Origin: a virus
IMG/VR virus record: IMGVR_UViG_3300038463_000730
Location: 302,259-366,258 of that record
DNA: 64,000 bases
Reading direction: 5' to 3' (one strand)
Shown here: positions 49,095 through 57,881 of the stretch, piece by piece
Numbering within the stretch: position 1 is the stretch's first letter
Layout of the letters: each line of letters opens with the position of its first letter
Notes under the pieces: generated by a model
What the model saw: only the letters and a program-made list of their open reading frames with translations
What the model was told of the DNA's origin: nothing
Database searches by the model: none
Translations under genes and position numbers: made by a program

Positions 49095-49138
49095 GTTTCA
49101 TGGGGACCGAGTCGGAACTCGTATCGTCAAAGTAGTTG

Positions 49139-51602: not shown

Positions 51603-52538
51603 TCACTTAAAAAACTCGGCCTGATCAACGTACGGCATTCCGACGCGCTTCGCGAAGGTTTGATCCGTCGTCTGGTCTCCGACATAGATGCACGCTTTGC
51701 GATCTAGTTTGTGTCGATGCATCAAATCGACAAAGTTTCCAACTTGCGGCTTCCGGCAATAGCAATTCGGAGGCGCAGCTTGGTGAGGACAAAACACAAC
51801 CTCGATATCCAATCCGAGGAGCTTGTTGGTATGTTGGAAGAGCGCCTGCGCTTTATCTGCTGTGAGATCGCCTTTGTGTACACCGGACTGGTTACTAACA
51901 CCGAGAAGCCGATACCCACGATCCTGGTAGTCCCGAAGAACACGTTTTACATTTGCCTTTAGCTGGATATGTTTCTCTTCGGTCGGGAACATGCCGTTCC
52001 CTCCGACACACTCACGAAGCGTACCGTCATAGTCAACGATCAGTGCTTTGTTCGTGAAGGTCGGATCATCCTGACGAACGAAGTCGCGCTCCGTTACTGA
52101 AGCGAATCCCTCGGCAACAGTAGGAGCTTGGAACTCTTTCTTGTGTTTGAAGAAGACAGCCGGAGGGAAGATACTTGGCTTCTTCGATTTCTGGATCTCG
52201 TACGGTGTTAAGAGCCTGCCTTCCGAAATCAACATACGGTTCAGGAAGTTGAACATCGAGTTCTCGATCGATGTCTTCATCACTACGCAATGAATCGGCG
52301 TACCATGCTTTTTCGCAAGATCGATGAATGGCGCCCGAGAAGCACTCGTAGGAAAAAGGTTGTCCAAAACAACCGACTTGTTATCGCCAAGTAAAGAATC
52401 AAACTTGGGAAGCAAGCCAGCGATTGTTCCACCTTCGGTATCTCGATTGAGAGTTGCAAATCCTTTCCGCGCATACTCTTTCGCCACCGTGCTTTTGGTT
52501 GAGGCCGGGAATCCACAGATAATGACCGCTTCGCTCAT
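51603..52538 (-). CDS. Polynucleotide kinase-3'-phosphatase (T4 Pnkp-like)
   Basis: The 311-residue protein has a kinase domain (P-loop-like GFPASTKST at residues 9-17, NRD, a basic helix region) followed by a HAD phosphatase domain (VDYDGTLRE, SNQSG, a CPH...CYCRKP zinc-type loop, YVGDQTTD). T4 Pnkp has the same order and heals RNA ends by 5' phosphorylation and 3' dephosphorylation, for example in cleaved tRNA. The P-loop shows Thr where the last Gly is normal, which may lower kinase activity. It lies directly downstream of the giant RNA on the same strand. Confidence 0.86.
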   Translation of the reverse strand: MSEAVIICGFPASTKSTVAKEYARKGFATLNRDTEGGTIAGLLPKFDSLLGDNKSVVLDNLFPTSASRAPFIDLAKKHGTPIHCVVMKTSIENSMFNFLNRMLISEGRLLTPYEIQKSKKPSIFPPAVFFKHKKEFQAPTVAEGFASVTERDFVRQDDPTFTNKALIVDYDGTLRECVGGNGMFPTEEKHIQLKANVKRVLRDYQDRGYRLLGVSNQSGVHKGDLTADKAQALFQHTNKLLGLDIEVVFCPHQAAPPNCYCRKPQVGNFVDLMHRHKLDRKACIYVGDQTTDQTFAKRVGMPYVDQAEFFK

Positions 52539-52618
52539 GACGAGCGGAGGACGTTGTTATCGCGAACTCGACACCGGAAACTGATCTACGTGTATGATAC
52601 ACGTATTAAACCAAAAGG

Positions 52619-54240
52619 AAACCCTGGTCACGCTAGAGCGTGCCAGGGTTCCGCGGCTTTCGCCGGAGCTGCGTAGGACCCGAGGTTCGACCCGAAGGTC
52701 AGTCCGAAGGGGTATCGCGCTTGCGCTGGCCGAGACATTGTCTCGAAGATCAGCGCTATGGTTGGAGGCCCGAGGGGTCAGGCCATGACCGTAAGATCCA
52801 GAACCCGTAGGTGGGATCGTTGGTCGGGACCGTTAAGTCCGCCGATTACTTTCGCGCCGTTCGGCAGCGTAGTGCGCACCCGGTGGGTGTGCTAGTAATC
52901 GGTTCGTTCCCTAGATTCCGGCGAAGCCGGAGATGTCGGGAAACTTTCACCTTAGTCCAGAGCGACCGGGATTGGTTGTCCAATCTCAATTCGATGAGAC
53001 TAAAGTTGGTGTCGCCTTGGTTTTGGAGAATTCAGCTATGCTGAGCTTTCCGTTACCTATGTCTACGGTTCAGGCTTATCAGGCGCGGACCGATTCGACA
53101 TCGAAGATGCGTTCGTTGATGGAAGCCTTTCGGCTCAGAGCAACGCTGTCGTCCTTTAGGGGACGGAGCAGACCAACCATTTCAGGCTGAACATCTTCTC
53201 TTGTTGCGTCACCATTCGGTCGTGTTGGAGTTACCAATTCACCTAGAACCTTCACCATCGGGACTAGTGTGAATATGTTGCTGACACTTTGCAGGCGTCG
53301 AGCGGGTAACGAATCGGACTCTCAACCTGTTTGATTGCCGAACCTCACGTGCTCATTCGGGCAATGCCCGGGAAGAACTTCGTGACTTTGACTCCGTGCG
53401 GACTGGATTGTCTGGCGTGTTGACTAGCGTTCGCGACGAATCGCGTGGCAGGGTCAAGACCCCAGATGGATTAGTTCCGCTGAACTCTCTGAGAAGTACT
53501 AGGTGTCCCGAAGGTCACCCTGACGCTCATTGAGCAGAGTCGTTAGCGACCTCGGTTAGCACGTAGTGCGCCTTGGTTGCCCGCTACCGTTTCCAGTAGC
53601 GCAGTTCAGAGCGAGTCTGAATCCTTCACGATCAATTGTGCATTCCTTTTTCTCTATCGTTCGACCTCGTAGATTGCGTTGGAAGCCCGAAGGCGTCCCG
53701 TGCATTGAAAAGGTTAGAGGCACAACTTCAGCTGGGACAAGTTGGTTTGCGCTAGAAGAACTTCCTGTTAGGGTAAGTTCCTACCGAGACCATTTCTGGT
53801 AACGATACATCTGTTTTACGTTCAACTCAGATACTTCAGCCGAAGCTGTATGTCCTGAGAAGGTACGGAATACATTTCTTAGTGCCGAAGCACTTGACTC
53901 AAGGTATCCGAGAATTGGCTTTTCGGGCCGCATCTCGTATCCATTTGCTCCTTTGTAGGGAGTGGCTATGGACAGCCGTGGCATTCACTTACGCGATTTG
54001 CCTTCACCGTGGCCAGAAACGTAGACCAGTTGCTTGCTTGTCGAGTCCTTGCTTCCTTTCGAAAGCCCAACTTGGAACGGAACACTTGCTGACCGAAGCC
54101 AGAATCCTTCTAGCCGTTTCTGCATCCACCCGCAAGGGCTTTTTGCTTACTCTGCATCGAAGAGCAACAACCTCTCGGCTGCTGCTGTTTCGCTCGGTGT
54201 TTCGTCCCTGCTGACAAGGAGGACACTACGCCGGTCCCTC
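52619..54240 (-). ncRNA. Candidate giant structured non-coding RNA (about 1.6 kb)
   Basis: No credible gene lies here on either strand, in a region where genes otherwise abut. The minus strand carries seven c(UUCG)g tetraloop motifs, most with clean stems (plus-strand positions 52692, 52704, 53508, 53687, 53840, 53885, 54093), two c(GAAA)g loops (about 52658 and 53128) and many perfect hairpins, such as 52731-52745, 53432-53445, 53582-53601 and 53605-53621. A longer-range stem joins 52842-52849 to 52895-52902. At the 3' end, 52620-52650 forms a 13-bp hairpin followed by TTTCCTTTTGGTTT, a likely terminator. Loop identity favours the minus strand. Size and phage/tRNA setting recall GOLLD and ROOL RNAs, but I cannot match it to either. 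Confidence 0.75.
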
Positions 54241-54315
54241 CGACCGAACAACAAAAAAGAACACGCCCGATCACTTTTTTCTGCGCTTGAGCTTAAGTCC
54301 TTTTCGGAAGCTCGT

Positions 54316-54681
54316 TCAAAGCAAAACTTTAAGCGAAACCTTCTTCCAATGGGCACAATAAAAGGTTCGGTGCGTTTCCAATGCTCCCCAATCCGAACTG
54401 GTCAGACGCATAAGCTGAACTTTCGGCCTGTAGGTCTTATGCGGGACGAGATCCCCGAAGAACTCATCCTCCTTCTCTGCGACTCGGCAAAAGCCCCACT
54501 CCAGGTCCCCACTTCCCATCGGGGCGCTCGGTTTCTGAGGCTGCCAGAAAGAGGAGCCCTGCGCGGTCAGCACGTAGCCATCCATGACACCGACCCCTCC
54601 TATAGAGGGAGGCACCGGGGCGGTAGGCTGATGCCGGTCCCAATGGATACAGCCAGCGCAACTTTTAGCATTCGAACTCAT
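54316..54681 (-). CDS. CxxCxxW protein, paralogue 1
   Basis: The start is set at ATG 54681 (ATGA overlap with the upstream stop), giving 121 residues. It begins with CAGCIHWD and later has WGFCR and FYCAHW; the upstream gene has the same pattern. Probably zinc-binding. Function unknown. Confidence 0.67.
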   Translation of the reverse strand: MSSNAKSCAGCIHWDRHQPTAPVPPSIGGVGVMDGYVLTAQGSSFWQPQKPSAPMGSGDLEWGFCRVAEKEDEFFGDLVPHKTYRPKVQLMRLTSSDWGALETHRTFYCAHWKKVSLKVLL

Positions 54682-54923
54682 CGCATAACCGCCAGCCTTC
54701 GGTTTTTGAATTGAACGCAACCGAATTCAGCGTGAGTGGATAAGATCGCGTCTTCCAACCCTTGTAGGTTGTAACACCAGGCATTTGTCGTTGCATCGGT
54801 AGCGTCACCAACTACCGATTTGGTTTTTTCACAAGCACCCCATTCATTATCAATGTTTATCTTTTGGTCCTGACTCCAATACAAACAATCTTTGCATTTT
54901 TCCGGCCATCCGTTTCTTTTCAT
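54678..54923 (-). CDS. CxxCxxW protein, paralogue 2
   Basis: An 81-residue protein with CKDCLYWS, WGACEK and FGCVQF, sharing the C..C..W...WG.C pattern with the downstream gene. Function unknown. Confidence 0.67.
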   Translation of the reverse strand: MKRNGWPEKCKDCLYWSQDQKINIDNEWGACEKTKSVVGDATDATTNAWCYNLQGLEDAILSTHAEFGCVQFKNRRLAVMR

Positions 54924-57879: not shown

Positions 57880-57881
57880 TG

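Follow-up and report, generated by a model that had tools for sequence, protein, structure and literature searches.

The minus strand of a ~1.6-kb interval in a jumbo-phage genome (IMG/VR record G000; 434,688 bp) very probably encodes a structured non-coding RNA. The interval spans positions 52619-54240 of the 64,000-nt stretch of DNA analyzed here (hereafter, the window; bases 302259-366258 of the record) and contains no credible gene. The RNA is well supported because its thermodynamics, strand-specific tetraloop hairpins, missing coding signal, and 3′ terminator-like hairpin all favor it. By analogy, a stand-alone giant RNA of ~1.6 kb that works in the manner of GOLLD and ROOL is the best explanation of the locus and, in our judgment, a fairly probable one. 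To our knowledge, only a few classes of giant structured RNA have been described in bacteria and phages, two of which are RNA-only cages.

A gene-free interval among tRNA genes

As an earlier note on this DNA had stated, genes abut across most of the window. The window's 15 tRNA genes are all encoded on the minus strand, and the candidate RNA is flanked by them on both sides (tRNA-Phe at 49138; tRNA-Ile at 57881). On the same strand, the interval lies between a PNKP-like gene and a 134-aa ORF (54316-54720), which is followed by further small proteins without assigned identity. The GC content of the interval is slightly higher than that of its flanks. The two principal features are:

52606-54216, minus: candidate giant structured non-coding RNA (~1.6 kb), its ends provisionally placed by a promoter-like element (5′) and a terminator-like hairpin (3′)
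51603-52538, minus: PNKP-like (polynucleotide kinase 3′-phosphatase-like) protein, 311 aa, the next gene downstream; Pfam PF13671 (AAA_33) and PF08645 (PNK3P)

A codon model trained on the phage's own long ORFs scored the ORFs of the interval near or below zero, far under the phage's genes, in agreement with the earlier reading that no credible gene is present. The best of them (53079-53258, minus, 59 aa) reached a sum of +4.7 and possesses no clear RBS; PNKP scored +38.9 and the next gene +91.5. Pfam gave no match for the two largest ORFs of the plus strand (53882-54214 and 54034-54714).

Tetraloop hairpins occur on one strand

Tetraloop hairpins, here meaning UUCG or GNRA loops with a closing stem of 4 bp or more, number 13 on the minus strand of the interval: 5 with UUCG loops (0.12 expected from dinucleotide shuffles) and 8 with GNRA loops (1.02 expected). 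The plus strand has no hairpin of either kind. The 13 hairpins are distributed from 52661 to 54176, i.e., across the whole interval. Because they sit on the minus strand alone, the minus strand is that of the RNA, as previously deduced from loop identity. The seven c(UUCG)g motifs reported for this strand were recovered (CTTCGG occurs seven times on the minus strand and never on the plus), whereas the two c(GAAA)g motifs proved to be an undercount, with CGAAAG found four times on the minus strand and once on the plus.

Among 95,300 window/strand positions in six jumbo-phage genomes, taken outside the locus, the maximum was 9 hairpins per 1.6 kb vs. 13 at the locus. Measured against these six genomes, the tetraloop asymmetry ranks as the strongest single item of evidence. 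Clusters of 8-9 hairpins in three relatives (G009, G025, and G047) lay mostly within ORFs and were set aside as background. When the same test was applied to five GOLLD RNAs of related phages, the RNA strand showed an excess and the opposite strand 0-1 hairpins. Two of the excesses were clear (8 vs. 1.1 and 6 vs. 0.9), and the remaining three were weak (3, 2, and 2). Counting tetraloop hairpins by strand is a simple route to finding further giant RNAs. In another phage, an ORF-free stretch (L091:17107-18023) contains seven minus-strand tetraloop hairpins (10 hairpins in the gap) together with TTATCCACA-like repeats; these repeats resemble DnaA boxes, and the stretch may be an origin-type region.

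Folding and structural domains

The minus strand of 52619-54220 has a minimum free energy of -597 kcal/mol, vs. -525 ± 13 (best, -567) for 24 dinucleotide shuffles. Helices of 5 bp or more with p ≥ 0.9, termed confident here, number 37, compared to 14 ± 5.7 in shuffles (maximum, 27) and 19 on the plus strand. Fold energy alone is not decisive, since the global fold of one coding stretch, taken as a control from elsewhere in the window, had a z of -7.1 (10 shuffles). Resolved by region, z on the minus strand is about -4.2 at 52501-53000 and about -0.9 to -2.7 over 53001-54250; the folding excess over the 5′ two thirds of the candidate RNA is modest. Six domains were tested against 200 shuffles. 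Four of these (100-142 nt) beat every shuffle, with z from -3.0 to -5.8, and two were no better than shuffles (53637-53784, z -0.5; 54051-54190, z -1.3). From 5′ to 3′, the predicted elements are:

54163-54186, minus: GAGA (GNRA)-capped 10-bp hairpin near the 5′ end; p 0.99
53343-53482, minus: long irregular arm tipped by the UUCG hairpin CGCGAUUCGUCGCG, plus an adjacent hairpin; z -3.0, 0/200 shuffles
53101-53200, minus: multi-branched domain of 100 nt, closed by an 8-bp stem, GAAGAUGU/GCAUCUUC, with one arm capped by GAAA; z -3.2, 0/200 shuffles fold as well
52765-52904, minus: 3′ domain in which CCGAUUACU/AGUAAUCGG closes a three-way junction, accompanied by three hairpins; z -5.8, 0/200 shuffles; p 0.99
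52619-52760, minus: terminal domain at the 3′ end, containing UUCG and GAAA hairpins; z -4.8, 0/200 shuffles

The longer-range stem that had been proposed at 52842-52849/52895-52902 was borne out as a 9-bp helix (52842-52850/52894-52902; pairing probability, 0.99). Long-range pairing shifts with the choice of 5′ end, and our claim is therefore limited to local helices.

Putative ends of the RNA

The following elements would mark the two ends:

52606-52652, minus: terminator-like hairpin AACCCUGG(CACGC..GCGUG)ACCAGGGUU, then UUCCUUUUGG; -26.5 kcal/mol over 56 nt
54223-54252, minus: promoter-like TTGTTC-N17-TAGTGT, a tentative 5′ boundary, read by eye and weak

A terminator-like hairpin of 13 bp had been described at the 3′ end. 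The hairpin is indeed present (52651-52619; p 0.95-1.0) and is followed by TTTCCTTTTGG, but its length is 14 bp (9 + 5). A near-perfect palindrome, ACGTGTATCATACACGT, occurs at window positions 52577-52605, between this hairpin and PNKP, and may represent an operator or another hairpin.

At the 5′ end, the promoter-like element (54252-54223) was not called by a consensus promoter scan. A 58-bp segment at this position, covering part of the element, aligns at 81% (E 4e-3) with a promoter-like site of Streptomyces phage BRock, where the sequence reads TTGACA-N17-TAGTGT. Two pattern scans of IMG/VR for a site of this type found BRock and no other contig. As an RNA homolog the BRock match was rejected; because the BRock sequence downstream of the site looks dissimilar, the match is read as promoter-like or due to chance. 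Given these two ends, positions 52606-54216 of the minus strand would be transcribed into one untranslated RNA of ~1.6 kb with an intrinsic terminator at its 3′ end.

Alternatively, the interval might contain several smaller structured RNAs in tandem (e.g., a compact 3′ RNA at ~52606-53010 and at least one more upstream), either transcribed individually or processed from a common precursor. Consistent with this, the 3′ 400 nt fold much better than the remainder, the + strand base-composition skew shifts near 53000, and the long-range pairs are ill-determined. However, the tetraloop hairpins are spread over the interval from end to end, and a terminator scan of the minus strand found none inside it. 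We consider a tandem arrangement unlikely, although it deserves to be kept in mind, and favor a single RNA.

The neighboring PNKP gene

PNKP is encoded on the same strand as the candidate RNA and starts ~70-80 nt past the terminator-like hairpin. The description of the RNA as lying upstream of PNKP is correct as to position, but the hairpin intervenes and the pairing of the RNA with PNKP is not conserved, as neither a sequence-similar region nor a comparable ORF-free gap was found upstream of the PNKP genes in 40 related loci. Were the interval a long, structured leader of PNKP or a region regulating that gene in cis, the shared strand and the short distance would be accounted for. We regard this as improbable in view of the strong terminator-like hairpin that precedes the gene and the 40 related loci without such a region; moreover, we know of no leader that approaches ~1.6 kb in size. 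PNKP does not lead to homologs of the RNA, because it sits elsewhere in relatives, and synteny based on the gene was rejected as a path to them. A scan of genome contigs with PNKP returned distant Amphritea matches only.

Elsewhere in the genome, two genes have an RNA_ligase domain (PF09414) over the cut-off (G000:286856-287338 and 399232-399720). Judging from domain content, these genes and PNKP could constitute an RNA-repair set, PF09414 being a domain that also matches other ligases. The candidate RNA might instead act as a decoy or sponge, titrating anticodon nucleases of the host or RNA-based defence alongside repair enzymes of the phage (PNKP and ligases). Such a role would fit the adjoining PNKP, the two ligase-domain genes (subject to the breadth of that domain), and the tRNA set. 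It is nonetheless a doubtful explanation with little probability in our estimate, as the candidate RNA contains no tRNA-like unit and PNKP is conserved among relatives in which no such RNA was found.

Searches for homologs and known families

No relative of the candidate RNA was found by blastn against phage and plasmid collections or 53 related records, by nhmmer against five large related genomes, or by covariance models of three domains (R1-R3) against 44 related records and the phage's own genome; each of these models was built from a single sequence and has limited sensitivity to distant relatives. On the basis of these three kinds of search, the candidate RNA is an orphan. Related loci for neighboring genes were readily found in IMG/VR, with 40 for PNKP (35-61% identity), 34 for NAMPT, and 63 for terminase; the terminase is 100% identical in one 40.8-kb fragment (IMGVR_UViG_3300034065_000050). 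One relative, G004, possesses tRNA genes and several of the window's genes in a different arrangement and has no comparable RNA. A 16-base pattern match in contig L292 had no further similarity and was attributed to chance.

At gathering scores, Rfam 15 covariance models matched nothing but tRNAs, and at E ≤ 10 they added only sub-threshold chance matches (E 0.38-6.6), with no rRNA, intron, ribozyme, or riboswitch. The locus was thus negative for GOLLD and ROOL even at relaxed thresholds, as the earlier note had suspected. The GOLLD model (RF02032; conserved 3′ region; gathering score, 150) had no match in the window or region at E ≤ 10, nor in the phage's own genome. It exceeded the cut-off in 5 of 40 records comprising relatives and the phage's own genome (155-188 bits), which serve as a positive control, and in none of a further 21 records. 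The five GOLLD RNAs, each in a jumbo-phage record, are:

G045:336908-337433
G042:179787-180277
G044:122694-123117
G030:267988-268453
G027:8388-8852

An nhmmer profile built from these five did not match the candidate RNA. tRNA genes are nearby at four of the five loci, and in two of the five ARAGORN called a tRNA within the GOLLD RNA itself. The ROOL model (RF03087) had no match in the phage's own genome or 39 relatives, in a search that had no positive control. A decayed coding sequence, mobile element, or assembly artefact, as the want of homologs and a GC content somewhat above the flanks might suggest, is very improbable, since strand-specific tetraloop excess and helices are not expected in decayed sequence and the interval matched no Rfam family, introns and rRNA included.

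A second structured stretch in the same phage

The phage's genome contains a further feature of this kind:

G000:22691-23825 (L140:2691-3825; outside the window), minus: second large structured stretch without a good ORF, recognized by its fold and internal repeats

Its minus strand folds at -444 kcal/mol vs. -375 ± 9 for shuffles and -325 for the plus strand, and forms 19 confident helices vs. 9 ± 4 in shuffles. It contains three diverged copies of one module in which hairpin pairs co-vary (CGGU/ACCG, UGGC/GCCA, and CGGC/GCCG). The stretch has no Rfam match, no homolog in the phage collection or related records, and no clear sequence in common with the candidate RNA at 52606-54216. Because the phage appears to carry more than one such RNA, the giant-RNA reading of the window locus gains in plausibility.

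The same genome also contains, at L155:6456-6120 on the minus strand (~G000:372378-372714; outside the window), two tRNA genes in which the 3′ half precedes the 5′ half with a short linker between them. With the halves re-ordered, ARAGORN called a tRNA-Leu(UAG) and, less clearly, a tRNA-Glu(UUC). From their sequence, both look circularly permuted, and their anticodons hinge on the assumed junction.

A possible role and comparison with known giant RNAs

If the locus is transcribed as a single giant RNA, its many tetraloop-capped helices may come together during infection in a compact tertiary particle, perhaps a homo-oligomer. Such a particle could serve the phage's tRNA/translation module; for instance, it might sequester or protect tRNAs or components of the ribosome. 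A bolder proposal, which we advance tentatively and would not bet on, is that the RNA represents a new ~1.6-kb class of giant phage RNA, larger than GOLLD, that forms an RNA-only tertiary or multimeric particle and replaces GOLLD in this lineage; taken with the second stretch, jumbo phages may harbor a pool of giant RNAs that diverge rapidly and escape Rfam. If true, this would add a third class to those of phages, one that exceeds GOLLD in length and has no detectable relatives, making it a clear target for cryo-EM or probing, and would imply that homology-based catalogues miss giant RNAs.

OLE is likewise a large structured bacterial non-coding RNA and forms oligomers (PMC12286853). It differs in its length of ~600 nt and in being found mostly outside phages, in Gram-positive bacteria that are extremophiles or anaerobes (PMC12054373); the candidate RNA has no Rfam match. 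GOLLD and ROOL are RNA-only cages of 14 and 8 subunits, respectively, are often found near tRNA islands, and are both of unknown function (PMC12286853). ROOL resembles the candidate as a large, ornate phage or prophage RNA but is far shorter (model, 574 positions), and the candidate has no ROOL match. As for GOLLD, the earlier note took it to be the smaller RNA, and ~1.6 kb agrees with this, many GOLLD members being >800 nt and the solved one 833 nt (PMC12286853). The candidate RNA departs from GOLLD in size (~1.6 vs. ~0.8-1.1 kb), in having no embedded tRNA and no covariance-model or profile match, and in the prominence of its UUCG hairpins. GOLLD is nevertheless a large, ornate, GNRA-rich phage RNA near tRNA genes, and the candidate, too, lies near tRNA genes. 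Without claiming membership in either family, we draw the analogy with GOLLD and ROOL on setting, size, and ornateness.
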